NCBI GenBank assembly: GCA_028283505.1
Contig: JAPOFX010000001.1
Span: 201,127-265,126, forward strand
DNA from: Candidatus Poseidoniales archaeon
GTDB taxonomy: Archaea; Thermoplasmatota; Poseidoniia; Poseidoniales; Thalassarchaeaceae
Direction of reading: 5' to 3'
Length of the DNA stretch: 64,000 bases
Positions within the stretch are counted from its first letter, which is position 1. Each line of letters opens with the position of its first letter. Positions 23,833 to 33,915 of this stretch are shown here, in pieces. The position numbers were made by a program, and so were the translations under genes. The notes under the pieces were generated by a model that saw nothing but the letters and a program-made list of their open reading frames with translations, was not told where the DNA came from and searched no databases.

Positions 23833-25011
23833 GTGTATATGGAAGAGGATGAGGTATTATTCAGTGTAAAGGAATCAAACCTTGATAGTGGCCTCAGGGG
23901 GATGCCCATAGGAACTTGCGAAACCTCCTATGTTGACCCACTTAAAGGCGTCCATTATGTCGGATATCCGGTGGAGGATTTGGTAAATCTTGAGGAAGAA
24001 GACGTGGTTTTCCTGTTGCTGAATAAAGAACTACCAACTCCGGAGCAGTCTGAAAAATTTAGGGCGGAACTCGCCCTCAGAGGGGAGACACTGCCAACGG
24101 GGGCGTTAAGAGTCTTAGAGTCACTCACGCCGGGAAGTGGCCATCCGATGGATTGGCTTGCCATTGGGATCATGGCACTGGGGACAGCCGAGCAAACCGG
24201 GGACCCAAAGTCAGATTCGATGAACCTAATTGCGAGAATGCCAGAGCTAATGGCACGTGTATTCTTGCTTAGGGGTGGTAAGAAGGAACAGTTAAGGCCC
24301 AGAAAACCAGAGCTGGGCCTAGTCGAAAACTTTGTCCATATGCTTGGAATTGACGGTGAAGAAGCTGAAAGGATGTGTAGAGTTCTTAGATTCTTTTTCA
24401 TATTACATATGGATCACGGAGGAGGCAATCTCTCCACATTTACTGGGAAAGCTGTTGCTTCAGGCAGGGCTTCCGTGTATGCCTCTATGGCCAGCGCGAT
24501 GAATGCTCTTTCTGGGCCATTGCATGGTAGGGCAAATCAGGCTGTCTTGGAATTTATTCAACGCATAGGAACATCCAACAGAGATGAAATAGCGGCATTC
24601 GTAAATGCAGAGATAGACTCCAGAAGGCCAATATATGGATTTGGACATGGAGTTCTAAGCGCGGAAGACCCACGAGCTAGACTCTTAATAGGCCTTGGAG
24701 ATGAGATTTGTCCGGATGATGAACTATACAAGATTGTCAAAGTCCTACGGGAAATTACTCCTGAAATCTTGAAGGAAAGACTTCCGAAGATAAGAAACCC
24801 ATATCCAAATGTGGATTTAGGAAGTGGGATGCTACTTCATTCTGTAGGTTTCGTCAAGCCAGATTATTACACCACATTCTTCGGATGGGCAAGAGTAGCT
24901 GGAATATGCGCACAGATATTGGATGAAAGAAACTCAAGAGAGGGAAGAGGGACCCCTATTTACAGGCCCAAATACATTCCAAAGAACCAGCCATTCAGAA
25001 GACTAGGCTAG
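23833..25011 (+). CDS. Citrate synthase
   Basis: HMDHGGGNLSTFTGKAVASGRASVYASMASAMNALSGPLHGRANQAVLEF, YGFGHGVLSAEDPRARLL. Confidence 0.94.
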   Translation: MYMEEDEVLFSVKESNLDSGLRGMPIGTCETSYVDPLKGVHYVGYPVEDLVNLEEEDVVFLLLNKELPTPEQSEKFRAELALRGETLPTGALRVLESLTPGSGHPMDWLAIGIMALGTAEQTGDPKSDSMNLIARMPELMARVFLLRGGKKEQLRPRKPELGLVENFVHMLGIDGEEAERMCRVLRFFFILHMDHGGGNLSTFTGKAVASGRASVYASMASAMNALSGPLHGRANQAVLEFIQRIGTSNRDEIAAFVNAEIDSRRPIYGFGHGVLSAEDPRARLLIGLGDEICPDDELYKIVKVLREITPEILKERLPKIRNPYPNVDLGSGMLLHSVGFVKPDYYTTFFGWARVAGICAQILDERNSREGRGTPIYRPKYIPKNQPFRRLG

Positions 25012-26345
25012 CCCTCCCTTACAGAAGCTAGAGCTTCTTCGACAGCTGCCATGGTTATCCTGTCCCCACTTTCCCTGACAATATTAGCAACTGCCTCTAC
25101 CTCTGTCCCTTCAGCCCCTGCTGCCGCGACCATATTCATGAGATGTAATTTCATGTGTCCAGCTTGGATGCCTACAGTTGCTAAGGCCCGTAATGCTCCA
25201 AGATTCTGAGCTAAGCCAGCAGCAGCCATGACTTTAGCAAGATCGTTAGCAGTCCTCAGTCCCAAAAGGGCCACATTAGCTTGGGCACCTGGGTGTATCC
25301 TAACTGCGCCCCCAACTAGTCCTACTGCCATCGGTATTTCTATTGAGCCTACCAAGTTCCCCTCACTATCTTTTTCCCAATGAGTCATCGACCCATACTC
25401 CCTTCCATAGGATGCGTATGAATGAGCACCTGACTCTATTGCTCGCCAATCTTGACCACATGCTATTGCTATCGGAGATATTGCATTCATTATTCCCTTA
25501 TTGTGTGTCGTAGCTCTAAATGGATCTGCAGCCGCGAAGTGATAGGCTTGAACAACGCCATCGATGACACTTGACCCACCTTCCCTATCCAAACCGCTAT
25601 CGGACATTTCCTCGGGAGTGAATACTGCACTAACCTTTGCTAATCGATGAACTGCTAAGTTACTAATTATCCTCAGAATCACAGTTCCGGTGCTTAGCTC
25701 TTCTATCCTTGGAGCTATGGTTTCTGCCATTGTGTTGACTGCATTTGCTCCCATCGCATCCCTGCAATCCACTAAAATATGTACGATGACCATGGGCCCA
25801 GAACCCGTCTCGATAATCCGGGCCTCCACACCTTTGCATCCACCACCGAATTTAACGAGTATGGGATCTACGTCATTGCATGCCTCAATAAGTTCCCTCT
25901 CGGCTGAAAGTATGGCCATCTTGGCGGCCTCCGGGTCGTCACAACCCACAACTTGGATCTGTCCTATCATAACCGGCTCATCATTGTCAGATACAAATCC
26001 TCCTTTGGAATGACACCTTTTCGCCATGTTGGAAGCTGCAGCCACAACACTCGCTTCTTCAACTACGAATGGAATTAGGTAATGCTCACCATCAATGATG
26101 AAATTTGTCGCCACTCCGATTGGAAGTGAATATGTCCCAATCACGTTCTCAATCATCCTGTCAGCAACTTCCTCTGTGAGCTCACCAGCCGAGGCCCATG
26201 CACCCACCATCTGATCATCCAATCCTGCAATATCCGCTAGCAAGCTCCTCCTCTCAGGGACAGATAGTTTGTAAAATCCTTTCAATCGACTGCTATCAAC
26301 TGGCATGTTATCATACCCCCTCGGTACAAACACCCTTCTGTACAT
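25008..26345 (-). CDS. HMG-CoA reductase, class II (bacterial-type)
   Basis: ENVIGTYSLPIGVATNFIIDG, PFVVEEASVVAAASNMAK, DCRDAMGANAVNTMAE, HNKGIMNAISPIAIACGQDWRAIESGAHSYAS. Start may be at ATG 26306. Confidence 0.93.
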   Translation of the reverse strand: MYRRVFVPRGYDNMPVDSSRLKGFYKLSVPERRSLLADIAGLDDQMVGAWASAGELTEEVADRMIENVIGTYSLPIGVATNFIIDGEHYLIPFVVEEASVVAAASNMAKRCHSKGGFVSDNDEPVMIGQIQVVGCDDPEAAKMAILSAERELIEACNDVDPILVKFGGGCKGVEARIIETGSGPMVIVHILVDCRDAMGANAVNTMAETIAPRIEELSTGTVILRIISNLAVHRLAKVSAVFTPEEMSDSGLDREGGSSVIDGVVQAYHFAAADPFRATTHNKGIMNAISPIAIACGQDWRAIESGAHSYASYGREYGSMTHWEKDSEGNLVGSIEIPMAVGLVGGAVRIHPGAQANVALLGLRTANDLAKVMAAAGLAQNLGALRALATVGIQAGHMKLHLMNMVAAAGAEGTEVEAVANIVRESGDRITMAAVEEALASVREG

Positions 26346-26420
26346 TTCGCTTCATTATCTCACTTGATATCATTCAATCGACTTTGAAAATATTTTCGAA
26401 ATGACTCGTCATTCCCGATT

Positions 26421-26600
26421 TAAACCGTTAATCTACACGTTAACGCTTGGTTAACGCATCATAAAAGCGTTAGATAAGCGTTAATTTATTGAATCAGTAA
26501 ACGTATTACTAGTCTTATATTAAATTAAAAATAATTTCTGAAAAGCGTAAATATACGTTAATTTGTATAATAATTTACGTTAATACACGTTAATATTATT
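26421..26600. repeat. AT-rich CGTTAA repeat cluster in divergent intergenic region; candidate replication origin or operator
   Basis: CGTTAA or its complement at 26426, 26438 (inside palindrome CGTTAACG), 26451 (reverse), 26479, 26556, 26578 and 26588, plus CGTTAG at 26468. 26521-26580 holds only 10 G/C in 60 nt. Confidence 0.6.
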
Positions 26601-26618
26601 TACTCTTTCATTCGCATT

Positions 26619-28466
26619 ATGTTTGTGAAGGGTAATGTGCCAGAGGAACTAGGACTGCCATTGCTCAGAGGTAATCCATTCGATCTAAGACCAATCGAAA
26701 GTGGAAGAGCGGAGTACTTGGTTGGAAGGGACCGACTTATCTCCTCGTGGAGGGAACACATAGTTTCACAATCTCCGAGAATGATGTTTTTAGTTGGAGA
26801 TAGGGGCTCTGGTAGATCGTCAATTGTTAGGACACTTGCGTCCCAAACCAAAAGGAGTTTTGTCGGTCAATTTTGGCCGATGAATGACCCTGTTAATTCT
26901 ATAATACATGAGCTCTATGTTCACTTCTGTGGTTTCGAATCTTCAGGATCAAACCAGAAGATGATAGATGATCTGGTCACTAATTTAGAGGAGTCTTCAG
27001 GGAACCTTCCAGTGATTTCCCTCGATTACCCTTCAAATGTGGACATAGCCCCAGTCCTAAGCTCATTGTCGCCAATCCTCCAAAGACTCAGAGCTTTGGT
27101 AATTGTAGTACTTACGCCTTCTCAGCTATCTTCACTAGACGAAGAGACGACTGAAATTTATGATATTCCAGAACAAATCCCAAACCTGACAAAAAGGCAG
27201 ATACAGGATCTCTCAAACAGACTCGTATCTAGGAAGGCTAGAGAAAAATGGATTATTGATGATGCCCTTCTTTCAAGAATTCACGAATCAACTTCTGGAA
27301 ATCCTAGAGATGTAATCAGGCTACTTAGAGACCTGACTGATGAGAGGAGAGATGTAGGTGCCAAAGGGACTTTGGAGAGGCTAATGCGCTGGCACAAATC
27401 TCCTGGTGAGATCAGAGATTCTTCGGACTCCATAGAGGTCATGGAAAAAACTGAGGCCGAGGATGAAGAAATCACTCATAATGAGAGGATCGCCAAAGAG
27501 AATGAATATGCAAAATTTCAACAACACGTGCAAGAAAGCCTCAGTCCGAAAAATGAGACTGAGGAAAGATCCGATCTAGAAGATTTTTCAGATGAATCGG
27601 ACAGACTAGACACAATTGATGAACAAGATGATCTATTTTACGAACCTAATGATCTGTGGATTCAGGATGCAGAACAATCCGAAAATAAGGAAACTAAAGA
27701 GAATGGGGTGGGTAGAGAAACTGTGCTGGAACAAGGAACCCTAGATGATTTTGTTTACATGGAGCCAGGTAGTGAGCCTCCGATGTATAATTCTGGTAAC
27801 GGTTTCAAAGGACTGGCCAGTAGATCTAAAGTGGCCCAAAATTCACAGCCCAAATCAGAGGAAGGAGCCCCATTTATTGAATCAATATCCGAAGTCCCGC
27901 CTCTATGGCCCGATAAGGAAACAGATCATTCAGAGGACGTAGAAATTCAAGATGGTATTTTTTTGGATGACAGCTATGATAACGATAATACAATCAAAAA
28001 TCCGAAAAAAAATCCCTCTAGTGTGATATCCACAGATTCTGTTCATTGGTCAGTCGAGCCTTCGATGAAATATTCATTGCCAAAGATAGAAGATAGTGGG
28101 ACAAAAACCCCACTTTTCGGTATCGATGATTCGCCGACCGATGAAACCTCAAATCCCCAAGTGCCTAGAAATATCACGAATATGGATGTATACGAGAAAG
28201 TCAATGCCTGGGAACCCGATCAACCTCTAAATGAGATTCAAATAACTCTTCTCAACGAAGCAGAACTCTTGGTAATCTCAGTCGCCGCGAAGAGAGAGAT
28301 ATCTCCCTCCGATGCTGAACTACAAGCCAGATTAGAAGTTGGAAGGCCCAGACTATCTCAGATATACAATGGCCTGCATAAATCAGGATTCCTTTCAGTA
28401 AGAAAACAAGGAAGAAAAAGACTATTCAAAATTACAGAAGCGGCTAAAAAATTGGTGGAGGTATAA
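26619..28466 (+). CDS. Degenerate AAA+/STAND-like ATPase with acidic linker and C-terminal winged-helix domain
   Basis: YLVGRDRLISSWREHI..MFLVGDRGSGRSSIVRTLASQ (Walker A with Arg replacing Lys), Glu/Asp-rich middle, C-terminal LEVGRPRLSQIYNGLHKSGFLSVRKQGRKRLFKITEAAKKL wHTH. Confidence 0.65.
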   Translation: MFVKGNVPEELGLPLLRGNPFDLRPIESGRAEYLVGRDRLISSWREHIVSQSPRMMFLVGDRGSGRSSIVRTLASQTKRSFVGQFWPMNDPVNSIIHELYVHFCGFESSGSNQKMIDDLVTNLEESSGNLPVISLDYPSNVDIAPVLSSLSPILQRLRALVIVVLTPSQLSSLDEETTEIYDIPEQIPNLTKRQIQDLSNRLVSRKAREKWIIDDALLSRIHESTSGNPRDVIRLLRDLTDERRDVGAKGTLERLMRWHKSPGEIRDSSDSIEVMEKTEAEDEEITHNERIAKENEYAKFQQHVQESLSPKNETEERSDLEDFSDESDRLDTIDEQDDLFYEPNDLWIQDAEQSENKETKENGVGRETVLEQGTLDDFVYMEPGSEPPMYNSGNGFKGLASRSKVAQNSQPKSEEGAPFIESISEVPPLWPDKETDHSEDVEIQDGIFLDDSYDNDNTIKNPKKNPSSVISTDSVHWSVEPSMKYSLPKIEDSGTKTPLFGIDDSPTDETSNPQVPRNITNMDVYEKVNAWEPDQPLNEIQITLLNEAELLVISVAAKREISPSDAELQARLEVGRPRLSQIYNGLHKSGFLSVRKQGRKRLFKITEAAKKLVEV

Positions 28467-28468
28467 AT

Positions 28469-28762
28469 TTGAATGACAACGTTCTTGTTACCCTAGAAAT
28501 GGTCAAGAAATATATTGCACTGACGGAGACTGCTAGGGAGAAGGCAACTCCCGCTAAACTAACCGAAGAAAACTCAAAAAAGCTTTCAACAATGATTAGA
28601 ATGTGTGATGATTATCTCTCTGATGCCAAGTATTTCATGCAAAGGGGCGATTTGGTCAGATCTTTCGGAGCGATAAACTATGCCCATGCTTGGATAGATG
28701 CAGCTGTGAAAATTGGTTTCATGGACGGGAAAGGGGATGACAATCTATTCACACTCCCTTAG
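28469..28762 (+). CDS. DUF357 family protein
   Basis: 97 aa helical; CDDYLSDAKYFMQRGDLVRSFGAINYAHAWIDAAVKIGF resembles the archaeal DUF357 family. Confidence 0.75.
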   Translation: MNDNVLVTLEMVKKYIALTETAREKATPAKLTEENSKKLSTMIRMCDDYLSDAKYFMQRGDLVRSFGAINYAHAWIDAAVKIGFMDGKGDDNLFTLP

Positions 28763-29124
28763 CCAATTAATCTTAACATTCTATCTGATACGACCTCGAT
28801 GTACTGACATCCAGATTTTGATAGATTTTCTTTAAGCCTGGTATCAACTGTTAAAACAGGCCATCTATTTTCTCTTGAAAGCTCAACTAGCATTCTATCT
28901 GTGTGGTTTTGCCCTTCTGGATCATCTATTAATTTACATCTTGATTTCAGTAATTCTAAGAGAAGACCCCGCTTCTGTTTAGCCAAATCTTCCAGTTCTT
29001 CCCAGACACTACTGATGACAATAAGCTCCGGCTTACCTATTACTTTGGACATCTCTGAATCTAGGTTCAGCCCGGATTTTACCAATGCGACCCATCCACA
29101 AGTGTCGACGAGAACCCCCGCCAT
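28759..29124 (-). CDS. PIN-domain protein (archaeal Fcf1/VapC-like, adjacent to eIF2-gamma)
   Basis: MAGVLVDTCGWVALVKSG...VISSVWEELEDLAKQ...DDPEGQNHTDRMLVELSRENRWPVLTVDTRLKENL. Start 29124 avoids overlap with eIF2-gamma. Confidence 0.8.
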   Translation of the reverse strand: MAGVLVDTCGWVALVKSGLNLDSEMSKVIGKPELIVISSVWEELEDLAKQKRGLLLELLKSRCKLIDDPEGQNHTDRMLVELSRENRWPVLTVDTRLKENLSKSGCQYIEVVSDRMLRLIG

Positions 29125-29128
29125 GTAA

Positions 29129-30367
29129 TCACCCTTTGATGGTGCCGTGTCCGATAAGTCTCCAACGAGAGCCGACCCTTCTTGATAATGTGATCCTACT
29201 TCCCCCTTTTGCACAAATCGGTAACCTCAATGCTAGTCTCGCCTCCCCTTTCTTGCTGGACGAAACGGTACCCACGCTTGTTGCGGTGGCAGAATTTACC
29301 ATCAACATCTCATTATTCTGTAAGGGCTTGACTAACCCCTCGTCACCATCCTCCCCAGATACCATCTTTTCAAGAAGTTCTAGCTTCAAATCTAGAGACT
29401 CCCATACTGGGGGAAGCTCACCATCCCTGGCCATCACCTGTCCAGATAGATCGTCAGCCTTTGTGGACATTGGGTCCAGAGGAGTGGCTATCCCGCAAAG
29501 TCCTCCTGCATGAGCGGTTTCTAGATCCAATCCTCCAGCTTGAATATTCTCTATGACCGTCTTCAATGGTTCCCATCTTGTCTTACTGCCTTCCACAATC
29601 CTCCTTCCTGGGGCTATCAATATGGAATCTCCCACACTGAATGAACCTTCGACTATACTTCCTCCGATAATTCCTCCTTTGAGTTTGCTCGGCCTCAATC
29701 CCGGCCTATTGACGTCGAAAGACCTGGCAACATACATCAGACCCTCCTCATCAGAATCGATTTTTGGACTCGGTATAGTGTCCTCTATAGCCCTAATTAG
29801 CACGTCTAGATTTACATCATGATGAGCTGAAACTGGAACAATGGGAGAACCTTCGGCAATCGTGCCATGAATGAATGACAATATCTCATTATATGATTCA
29901 ACAGCCCTCTCCCTAGTTACAAGATCGACTTTATTCTGAACTACAACTATATTCTTTATACCAGCTATTTGTAAAGCTGCAAGGTGCTCTCTAGTTTGTG
30001 CTTGTGGACAGGTCTCATTAGCTGCAACCAATAATAGGGCCCCATCCATGATTGCCGCCCCAGAAATCATTACTGCCATCAGAGTCTCGTGTCCAGGCGC
30101 ATCAACGAAGGATATAACTCGGAGGAGGTCATTCTCAGAATCTTCTCCCCCTTTCGGATTTTTTCCTCTAGGGTAGTATTCTCCATCCTTGTTCTTGTAA
30201 AAAGCGGTGTCTGCATATCCTAGCTTAATGCTGATTCCACGTTTCCTTTCTTCGGAGTGAGTATCAGTCCATGTTCCCGATAGTGCCTTTGTTAGCGTGG
30301 TCTTTCCATGATCTACGTGTCCGACCATCCCAATATTTACTTCGGGCTGGCTTGGTAAATCATCCAC
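29129..30367 (-). CDS. eif2g: Translation initiation factor aIF2 gamma subunit
   Basis: VNIGMVGHVDHGKTTLTKALSG, DAPGHETLMAVMISGAAIMDGALLLVAANE, QNKVDLV. Confidence 0.96.
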   Translation of the reverse strand: MDDLPSQPEVNIGMVGHVDHGKTTLTKALSGTWTDTHSEERKRGISIKLGYADTAFYKNKDGEYYPRGKNPKGGEDSENDLLRVISFVDAPGHETLMAVMISGAAIMDGALLLVAANETCPQAQTREHLAALQIAGIKNIVVVQNKVDLVTRERAVESYNEILSFIHGTIAEGSPIVPVSAHHDVNLDVLIRAIEDTIPSPKIDSDEEGLMYVARSFDVNRPGLRPSKLKGGIIGGSIVEGSFSVGDSILIAPGRRIVEGSKTRWEPLKTVIENIQAGGLDLETAHAGGLCGIATPLDPMSTKADDLSGQVMARDGELPPVWESLDLKLELLEKMVSGEDGDEGLVKPLQNNEMLMVNSATATSVGTVSSSKKGEARLALRLPICAKGGSRITLSRRVGSRWRLIGHGTIKG

Positions 30368-30389
30368 CAGTTACACCATCTCCCAATAT

Positions 30390-30884
30390 TCACTCCTCTT
30401 CAGCAGAGGATTGATTGTCAGGAGCTTCTTCTTCCACACCGAAAATCACACCGAGAGGCCTCTTTCCTGCCACAACTATTTTCAGATTGATTTGCCTAGT
30501 CTCTTGACTTATGACATTTCCACGGAGATTCCTCCTTTTCCTTAGCCCGTCATACTTGTATCTGTATGTCTTGCCTTTTTTGTTGACCTTCTTGTCTCCT
30601 TTGTACCCTATTCCAGCAGTAATCAATACCGATTTAACACCACTACCATCTAAATCTGGCCTCATCGGCCTCCCTGTAAGATCCGAACCTCCTGTGATTT
30701 CCAATTTGTATCCGGTTAGTGATTGATCGCCTTCGCCAACGAACATTCCGTCTACTGAGTCTCCTATCTTCTTACCTAGGAAATGGTTGTAATTTGAACC
30801 AGTAATTTCCATGGAGAAAGCACGGCCCCCATACTTCGGATTAGTGTCGTTAACGACTGCCTTGAATGACTGCTCGCCTGCCAT
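30390..30884 (-). CDS. rps6e: Ribosomal protein eS6
   Basis: FKAVVNDTNPKYGGRAFSMEI, GGSDLTGRPMRPDLDGSGVKSVLITAGIGYKG, YRYKYDGLRKRRNLRGNVIS. Confidence 0.94.
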   Translation of the reverse strand: MAGEQSFKAVVNDTNPKYGGRAFSMEITGSNYNHFLGKKIGDSVDGMFVGEGDQSLTGYKLEITGGSDLTGRPMRPDLDGSGVKSVLITAGIGYKGDKKVNKKGKTYRYKYDGLRKRRNLRGNVISQETRQINLKIVVAGKRPLGVIFGVEEEAPDNQSSAEEE

Positions 30885-30954
30885 ATTTACTCCTCGGACG
30901 GCAACCCGACATGAGGCCCCTATAAGAGCGGTTCGGAAGCCAACCGAATGTCAA

Positions 30955-32163
30955 TCAGCGGTTCATGAACTCCTTCTCTATCCTACTCCCTATTGTGGCG
31001 GGCGAGGTATTACTCATTGTAATGTAAGTAGTTCTGCCCCTTCCAACAGAAGTATTGGTCGACCTCGCTTCTAGTAGTCCTTCGGTTTCTAAAGACTTTA
31101 GATGCTTCCAGAAGGTGGTATAACTCCTAGTTTTAATTGAAAACTCTTCACATACAAGCTCGTACAGCTTGCGAGCATCACCACTAGAGATTTCCTCCAC
31201 CTTGCGCAACCTTCTGCAAATGCCCAGAAGAATCAGTTTTTGATGAGTCCCCAGGGAATCAACTTGACTCGGCTCTACTGAAGCTGTCCTAAGGGTACTG
31301 GGCATAACATCGCCAACATTCACCTCTCCCCTGCCATCCATCTCTGCTCTTCGTACAGCAGCCTCTAGGAGCTCAATAGCTAGACGTGCATCACCCGTCT
31401 CAGAGGCGAATCTGCCGATCTTTTCCAGTACCTCTTCACCTACCGAACCGGGCTTGCATGAAGCTTCGTAACGTTGCTTAGATATCCCTACAAGTCCATC
31501 AGAGTCATAAGGCTCTAGCCTCAAAACATTACTTTCTCCCAATCTAGAGATTATCGCGGGTTCTAACATGCCCATCAGGGAAGGATCTTGACTCACCAGA
31601 ATCAGTGAAACCGAGCCATGGTTACCTTGCCCCTCATCTATTCTAAGAAGTTTGTATATCAGATCACTACTGTCTCTCCTAACAAGCACGTCCACCTCAT
31701 CCAAAACAAGTATCATGTGAAGCCCCCTCGACCGGATATTTCTCCGTATTGACTGGATAATCTCTCCCGAGCTGAAGCCTCTCTCAGGGTGTCTTGAGTC
31801 CAGAGACAGAGCTATCTGTTGCAATACTTGGGAAGTAGAGGGATGATTTCTGCAGTTTACATGCGAAAGAACAATTTTCCTGATGCCATCCATTTCCCTT
31901 ACTACATCTTCTCCAAATCTTCTGGTCAGAACTGTCTTTCCAGTGCCTACATGGCCAACAACCACTGCTCGGCCACTGACATTTTCGTTCCCGATTCCCA
32001 TGAACATCGAAGCCAGTGATTCCAGCTCTCTTTCCCTGCCAACCAACAGGGGAGGTGTCCAATCAAATGATAGAGGTCCTCTGTCTAGAAGAACCTTGCC
32101 CGCTCCTATCCTGTCCAGGTACCCTGCCATCAAGACACAATTACTAACATCGTTCTTAGACAT
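30955..32163 (-). CDS. Orc1/Cdc6-family replication initiator
   Basis: LVGRERELESLASM, Walker A VVGHVGTGKTVLTRRF, Walker B ILVLDEVDVLV, sensor-type ASETGDARLAIELLEAAVRRAE, C-terminal winged helix. Confidence 0.88.
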   Translation of the reverse strand: MSKNDVSNCVLMAGYLDRIGAGKVLLDRGPLSFDWTPPLLVGRERELESLASMFMGIGNENVSGRAVVVGHVGTGKTVLTRRFGEDVVREMDGIRKIVLSHVNCRNHPSTSQVLQQIALSLDSRHPERGFSSGEIIQSIRRNIRSRGLHMILVLDEVDVLVRRDSSDLIYKLLRIDEGQGNHGSVSLILVSQDPSLMGMLEPAIISRLGESNVLRLEPYDSDGLVGISKQRYEASCKPGSVGEEVLEKIGRFASETGDARLAIELLEAAVRRAEMDGRGEVNVGDVMPSTLRTASVEPSQVDSLGTHQKLILLGICRRLRKVEEISSGDARKLYELVCEEFSIKTRSYTTFWKHLKSLETEGLLEARSTNTSVGRGRTTYITMSNTSPATIGSRIEKEFMNR

Positions 32164-32217
32164 ATTCAGTAAGGGAGGTCAAAAATTGACTGTTTCATAG
32201 GGGCATTTTACTACGAC

Positions 32218-33324
32218 TTAAGGAATCTCATCGAATTGGTATCCATTTTCCCATTTCTTTTCCCCCAGCGCAACTTCTAATTCATAAGGAGTCACAAGAG
32301 GCTTGTCATATCTCACCGAGTCATCAATGGCTATTCGTGGACAAGCAGTATTCACAAAAGCATCAACCGGGTAGAAGTCGATAAGATCTGGACTAACATG
32401 ATCCAAAGCTAGTAAATACCCCTTTCGACCATGCTTTTCCAGGACTCTCTTCATCCTTATGGCTAGGTTCCTCCTCATCTGGCCGGGTTTCTCACCAATC
32501 AATATTCCGAAGGTTTTGGCATTATCAATCTCCATTATAAGCCCAAACCGCTGTCTAAGAATTCTTTCAATTCGTCCAAAGGACATCTCACTGGAATCTC
32601 CGGTGTATGGGTCCAATAGTGCCAAGGGCTTTCCCGTGTGTAATACAAGACCTATGGGGTGGAAGTCGCCAGAACCCAAGAACAGGTAGTGCCCAATTTC
32701 ATCATTATCTCCTGAATAATTGCATCCTAATACCTGCCCTGGAAAGGTTAGCCTATCTCCTCCGGTGGGTATCACTACCTCAAATCCAGCCCCCTCAAGC
32801 ATTTCTTTGTATTTTGGTAACAGGTGAAGGTGTTGAATGGATCCGACGAGCCCCAATTTAGTTGCCTTGAGAGGTGAGAATCTACCCACGGCATCCAAAA
32901 AAATCCGATGAGCATCTTCCTCATTCAAGTCTGCTGATATTTTTGCTCCGATTCTAGATTGTGCTATTGATAGATGAGATCTCAGAATGGGCAAAATACC
33001 CTCTATCTCAGGTTCTCCATCGTACGTAACCGAAATGAACTGAGTCGGCATACCCGAGTCTATATTCATCTGACTATGTCCCATGTGAGCAACCAACTCA
33101 ACACCCATAGCCCTCATTTTATCGTGCACAAGGTCACATGCACCATAACAAGGATCGGCAGCAAGGATCACTTTCGCATCGGAATCATCCTCAATCTTGT
33201 CCATCATTTCGAGGGCCTGCATCTTGAGTCCTTCCGGAACCTGCAGTGCGACTAACCGGTTATCGTTAGATTTTATCCTCTGAACAAGCTCGTCTAGTTG
33301 GAAATCATGCCTGTCCAAATCCAT
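32218..33324 (-). CDS. dph2: Diphthamide biosynthesis enzyme Dph2
   Basis: VALQVPEGLKMQALEMMDKIED, DPCYGACDLVHDKMRAMGVELVAHMGHSQM, VNTACPRIAIDD. Confidence 0.92.
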   Translation of the reverse strand: MDLDRHDFQLDELVQRIKSNDNRLVALQVPEGLKMQALEMMDKIEDDSDAKVILAADPCYGACDLVHDKMRAMGVELVAHMGHSQMNIDSGMPTQFISVTYDGEPEIEGILPILRSHLSIAQSRIGAKISADLNEEDAHRIFLDAVGRFSPLKATKLGLVGSIQHLHLLPKYKEMLEGAGFEVVIPTGGDRLTFPGQVLGCNYSGDNDEIGHYLFLGSGDFHPIGLVLHTGKPLALLDPYTGDSSEMSFGRIERILRQRFGLIMEIDNAKTFGILIGEKPGQMRRNLAIRMKRVLEKHGRKGYLLALDHVSPDLIDFYPVDAFVNTACPRIAIDDSVRYDKPLVTPYELEVALGEKKWENGYQFDEIP

Positions 33325-33330
33325 TTATAA

Positions 33331-33915
33331 TCACTCAATAATTTCCACTTTACCGTCAATAATGTCAATTCTCGCCAGAGTCCTGATTCTCCAATCAGGT
33401 CGTTCCTTAGATAGACGCTCCCGTCCATCTCCCTTTTCAATCGCTATGATGATATCTTGGAGCTTAGCACCGATTCCCTCAATGGCATCTAATATGGGCT
33501 CCAGGGTCCCTCCCGTGGAGATTACATCATCCACGATTAGTAACCTTTCACCGGGTCTGATATCATTTATGTAAGTTGTAGATTCCGAATAGCCAGTGGA
33601 AACTTCCACCTTTACTTCTCCCTCCATCCCATAGGAACGCTTCCGAATTACCACGGTCGGTTTCCCCGTTACTTCACCGACAGAGGCCAGAAGAGGGAGT
33701 CCCATGGCCTCGACACTGGCAATTAGATCAATCTTAGACCAATCTACCATTGATACTATTAGGTCCCTAGTAGCTCTTAGCACACTTGGGTCCATCCTAG
33801 GTATACCATCGGAGATTGGATGAATGAAGTACGGATAATCTCCCTTCCAGATAATCGGTGCACCCCTGAGGGATTCCTGAAGAATTGTTAGTGGGTCACC
33901 GGGCTCCATGCCCAT
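33331..33915 (-). CDS. hpt: Archaeal hypoxanthine/guanine-type phosphoribosyltransferase
   Basis: GDYPYFIHPISDGIPRMDP, VVIRKRSYGMEGEVKVEVSTGYSESTTYINDI, LLIVDDVISTGGTLEPI. Start trimmed to avoid L10e overlap. Confidence 0.85.
   Translation of the reverse strand: MGMEPGDPLTILQESLRGAPIIWKGDYPYFIHPISDGIPRMDPSVLRATRDLIVSMVDWSKIDLIASVEAMGLPLLASVGEVTGKPTVVIRKRSYGMEGEVKVEVSTGYSESTTYINDIRPGERLLIVDDVISTGGTLEPILDAIEGIGAKLQDIIIAIEKGDGRERLSKERPDWRIRTLARIDIIDGKVEIIE

Follow-up and report, generated by a model that had tools for sequence, protein, structure and literature searches.

In the STAND regulator MalT, an NTPase module is joined to a C-terminal LuxR-type HTH that acts on an array of sites, and the ATP-bound form multimerises and can then occupy several boxes cooperatively, with hydrolysis resetting the switch (PMC4381067). 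In a 64-kb window (the whole stretch of archaeal DNA analysed here, which is part of a 276-kb contig of a 1.30-Mb genome in 23 contigs), we found a gene for a protein, called the AAA-winged-helix protein below, that has the same general build of NTPase module, C-terminal DNA-binding domain and array of sites, but that is without a sensor repeat domain and carries a winged helix instead of the LuxR-type HTH. We regard MalT as the closest mechanistic parallel, as an analogy and not as a statement of membership. With Orc1/Cdc6 the protein has in common that an AAA+ core and lid precede a C-terminal winged helix, and its fold matches 2v1u and 2qby, but it differs by an Arg in the P-loop, a Walker B motif without Glu, an acidic linker of about 280 aa and a winged helix that is ArsR/SmtB-like. 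The AAA+ fold also recalls MuB and TnsC (8xvb, TM 0.57/0.63), although the gene lies at a conserved chromosomal locus without transposon context and a winged helix is added. Compared to ArsR/SmtB proteins (HlyU, SqrR, SmtB, BigR), finally, the fold of the C-terminal domain is alike, whereas here the winged helix forms one part of a large AAA+ protein. The open-access literature yielded no paper on this protein. The features of the locus, in window positions unless another locus is named, are as follows.

25008..26345, minus strand: divergent HMG-CoA reductase gene, probable start at 26306
26426..26593, no strand assigned: CGTTAA/TTAACG array, 8 sites (site count, conservation)
26588..26604, plus strand: site closest to the gene, merging with a TATA-like stretch, presumed promoter of the AAA-winged-helix gene (family alignment)
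26619..28466, plus strand: AAA-winged-helix protein, open reading frame with ATG start, 615 aa
26643..27404, plus strand: AAA+ core plus lid (AlphaFold model, fold search, AAA_16 matches)
26796..26822, plus strand: P-loop GDRGSGRSS, G60 to S68, Arg66 in place of Lys
27012..27029, plus strand: Walker B strand VISLDY, Asp136 retained, Glu absent
27405..28217, plus strand: acidic linker, variable (charge and length comparison among orthologs)
28218..28463, plus strand: predicted ArsR/SmtB-like winged helix (model and fold search)
28469..28762, plus strand: DUF357 gene, TTG start 2 nt after the preceding stop (PF04010, E 8.6e-20)
30955..32163, minus strand: canonical Orc1/Cdc6 gene of the same neighbourhood, intact GTGKT and DEVD
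L054:3005-4045, minus strand, and L062:9869-10909, plus strand: examples of a conserved gene for a protein of about 345 aa

The initial annotation had read most of this architecture correctly. The P-loop with Arg in the place of Lys (codon AGA, 26814-26816) and the VISLDY strand in the place of hhhDE can be read directly in the open reading frame, and the C-terminal winged helix was recovered by structure model and fold search. The segment preceding it is acidic as described, but with about 280 aa (net charge -45) it is longer than the proposed ~200 aa; such a linker is present in all 41 orthologs examined, at 183-340 aa and net charges of -22 to -69. The suggested Orc/STAND-like fold is borne out by structure prediction and fold comparison: the AAA domain plus lid is modelled confidently (AlphaFold, pLDDT 88, pTM 0.82) as an AAA+ domain of the Orc/STAND/clamp-loader kind, with NB-ARC, Orc1/Cdc6, MuB, TnsC, RFC and RuvB as best structural matches (TM-scores around 0.5-0.57); the two Orc1/Cdc6 structures score 0.52-0.54, and NB-ARC, MuB and RFC score alike. 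The model of the winged helix is moderate (pLDDT 79); its top fold matches are HlyU, SqrR, SmtB and NolR, with TM about 0.6 for HlyU, SqrR, SmtB and BigR, so that by its model the domain resembles ArsR/SmtB repressors and not the Cdc6 winged helix. It carries an invariant RxR-x-SQ helix, and at the profile level only MarR_2, GntR and HTH_5 match, marginally and in some orthologs.

Profile searches place the protein near known families rather than within one. AAA_16 (PF13191) is matched by all 31 members at E <= 0.01, each time weakly; in the window protein the isolated domain reaches 33.4 bits and the full protein 30.1 bits, against a Pfam cut-off of 32.6. ORC-CDC6-like is weakly matched by 7/31 members and the NCBI orc1/cdc6 model (TIGR02928) by 6/31, and profile alignment to two local Orc1/Cdc6 paralogs spans the AAA domain with probabilities of 63 and 86. 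The layout is Orc-like, yet the protein falls outside Orc1/Cdc6: the intact GK[S/T] and DE of that family are both missing, and the window protein has no match to Cdc6_C (PF09079) or Cdc6_lid above cut-off, Cdc6_C being matched weakly in 5/31 winged helices (best E 0.001). Neither is it a STAND protein by profile, as nSTAND1 gives the window protein 19.8 bits compared to a cut-off of 27.1 and no sensor repeat domain was seen. A sequence-profile search of the PDB returned generic P-loop and repeat-protein matches only, PADLOC gave no match, and PHROGs a partial clamp-loader match only (E 8.8e-6).

The gene is specific for the order Poseidoniales. With the window protein as query a match was obtained in 59/60 relatives, the named ones being Ca. 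Poseidoniales (Marine Group II), several with the label Ca. Thalassarchaeaceae. An AAA-domain profile matched 210 of the 245 genomes sampled from the class, and among the matches listed all fall in two families of one order; a phylum-wide sample of 246 genomes yielded 61 matches, again all within this order. The gene is almost always single-copy. Twelve genomes of the order gave no AAA match, most of which probably reflects assembly gaps, since a search of the genomes' contigs with the winged helix still found this domain on a fragment in 5 of the 12. Likewise, where joint loss of array and gene was looked at, the genomes without a gene match were mostly incomplete assemblies.

The initial annotation had raised the question whether the P-loop Arg is fixed, and had taken the two altered motifs as a sign of an ATPase-impaired protein, a reading against which orthologs with intact GKS/T and DE would speak. 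The Arg is near-fixed and ancestral. In a 41-row alignment it occupies 40 rows and Lys one, and among 75 named orthologs with the domain, GSGR[ST] occurs in 69 and GSGKT in 5, the Arg fraction being 69/74 when the one ortholog unmatched by the pattern is left out as not scorable. On the tree, Arg is the root state and the GKT sequences represent two independent changes to Lys. A Walker B D-E was absent from every ortholog inspected, including those with Lys: in the alignment every row keeps the Asp, and the next residue is Y, F, L, H, V or A but in no case Glu. This missing Glu argues against normal hydrolysis, and the domain probably hydrolyses nucleotide poorly or not at all. The P-loop is, however, probably not simply dead, because the two reversions to Lys and the invariance of its Gly and Ser positions across orthologs suggest a pocket that still binds nucleotide.

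A CGTTAA cluster beside the gene, also described earlier, is indeed there. The 64-kb window holds 16 CGTTAA/TTAACG sites, compared to 13.2 expected, so that the unusual feature is their clustering and not their total. In the own genome, all four CGTTAA-N1..25-CGTTAA pairs sit in one intergenic region, upstream of the gene; since this genome also has 8 occurrences of a reversed control pattern, the number of pairs says little by itself, but the coincidence of all four at one spot does. Twelve other genomes show repeated, tightly spaced pairs at the array locus and scattered single pairs elsewhere. Upstream of 39 orthologs we counted 214 sites, where dinucleotide shuffling predicts 12.6; the commonest interval is 11 bp (41 cases), and 2, 9, 14, 28 and 77 bp recur. 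In both families the array keeps a near-constant distance upstream of the gene, and in almost all loci it lies between this gene and the divergent HMG-CoA reductase gene. Gene and array stay linked across the order, and for this reason the protein is the best candidate binder of the cluster, as had been proposed. Alignment of the window's family shows a proximal CGTNA-N6-CGTNAATRTTA that continues into a TATA-like stretch a short way ahead of the start codon; sister-family arrays are placed at a greater distance from the start codon, clear of the presumed promoter. Outside the array, isolated CGTTAA sites show no enrichment, and no wider regulon was seen. An apparent avoidance of CGTTAA outside the array was rejected, as the depletion relative to permutations is gone under a Markov model; TTAA is rare in general.

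Regarding the surrounding genes, the HMG-CoA reductase probably starts at 26306 and not 26345, judging from a conserved MPVDSSRLKGFY-like start, which makes the intergenic region about 310 bp long. The DUF357 gene does follow 2 nt downstream in the window, as stated in the initial annotation, but this adjacency is secondary, another gene intervening in the sister family and deeper genera. This gene of about 345 aa was seen in 17 loci, mostly overlapping the AAA stop codon and otherwise closely following it; neither the window's genus nor several genera close to it yielded a copy. Its product, with a repeat pattern and a single weak PQQ_2 match, is possibly beta-propeller-like with a helical C-terminus. 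An Orc1/Cdc6 gene lies within about 7 kb of the array in both families. The local Orc1/Cdc6 paralogs retain GKT, and they retain DE except for two that the pattern did not match. Besides the AAA-winged-helix protein, the genome encodes two canonical Orc1/Cdc6 proteins, their motifs intact. The gene of the second one, located elsewhere, is preceded by an intergenic leader of about 390 bp (L131:4486-4878, G000:C23) with an element like CTTATTATCT..CTCGCT..AATCCGCGTTGG that is common to several genera (also L136, L138, L139 and L141); this leader holds no CGTTAA array, no tRNA and no Rfam match above cut-off. Within 25000-33500 of the window, Rfam gave no match either.

We propose, with a confidence that is about evenly balanced, that the protein is a Poseidoniales-specific regulator that would bind the array cooperatively and autoregulate. 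The ArsR/SmtB-type winged helix would bind the CGTTAA sites just upstream, the AAA+ domain would keep nucleotide with little or no hydrolysis and act as an oligomerisation or latch module, and the acidic linker would tether the two. Several protomers may load cooperatively on one DNA face, since the commonest interval of 11 bp is about one helical turn. As its main output, the protein would control its own gene together with the DUF357 gene that follows, and possibly the divergent HMG-CoA reductase gene too. Autoregulation appears the most likely output because in the window's family the array extends as far as the promoter presumed for this gene; the site enrichment at near-constant distance upstream, the restriction of paired sites to the array in the own genome, the repressor-type winged helix with its invariant helix and the confidently modelled AAA+ fold point the same way. 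Less easily accommodated are the number of sites, five to nine within about 150 bp, which exceeds the needs of a simple autorepressor, the position of the sister-family array, the missing wider regulon and the moderate winged-helix model. That the AAA domain would be an inert scaffold unable to bind nucleotide, with the winged helix acting alone, fits the Arg and the missing Glu in nearly all orthologs but seems improbable, as invariant P-loop Gly/Ser and two returns to Lys are unexpected for a decayed site. It is also unlikely that a different protein, be it the Orc1/Cdc6 encoded nearby or a separate regulator of HMG-CoA reductase, binds the array while the AAA-winged-helix gene is a mere neighbour that acts elsewhere: in nearly all loci the array has the divergent HMG-CoA reductase gene on its other side, and an Orc1/Cdc6 gene is near, but the distance from array to gene is near-constant, L068 keeps two sites near the gene although HMG-CoA reductase is further off, and the Orc1 block inverts independently (L054, L059 and L060) while the array stays with the AAA-winged-helix gene.

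The array might instead be a chromosomal element, either a main or secondary replication origin or a partition site, with the protein as a dedicated initiator-like or organising factor beside Orc1/Cdc6. A single array on each chromosome, at a locus that is conserved, its many phased sites, which in the family flank a 77-bp stretch on both sides, an AAA+ fold near that of Orc1/Cdc6 and an Orc1/Cdc6 gene within about 7 kb in both families would suit such a role, which we nevertheless consider rather unlikely; that a lineage-specific, hydrolysis-deficient AAA+ protein with an ArsR-type winged helix coats the array for origin control or partition, parallel to the two Orc1/Cdc6 proteins, we hold to be doubtful. 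Members with a higher G+C content show no AT-richness in the 77-bp stretch, and the winged helix is of repressor type. Raw GC skew was discarded as an origin indicator because it tracks gene orientation and is uninformative, and third-position AT skew with the gene-strand effect removed was used instead. In the closed genome G037, of which about 1.2 of 2.06 Mb was sampled, this skew does not change sign where the array lies, at 0.695 Mb, nor is a skew break seen on two long contigs from other genomes; this bears on an origin, not on a partition site. Between about 0.1 and 1.2 Mb the G037 skew has mostly negative values, and outside this interval mostly positive ones. The sign changes near 0.1 Mb and 1.2 Mb (G037:C1) are candidate positions of replication origin and terminus, and coincide with neither the array nor any Orc1/Cdc6 gene. 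No paper on a replication origin in Poseidoniales was found in the open-access literature. Archaeal skew is weak and the G037 assembly contains runs of N, one within the array, and for these reasons a main origin at the array is rated only as less likely than autoregulation. Together with the second Orc1/Cdc6 leader that holds no array, the skew is why autoregulation is preferred.

The natural Lys-to-Arg change in Walker A, kept order-wide with two reversions, is useful for asking what a hydrolysis-impaired AAA+ protein retains. Moreover, a specific conserved DNA array is linked here to an uncharacterised gene that occurs throughout an order of abundant, uncultured ocean archaea, and the function of this gene is therefore directly testable in vitro.
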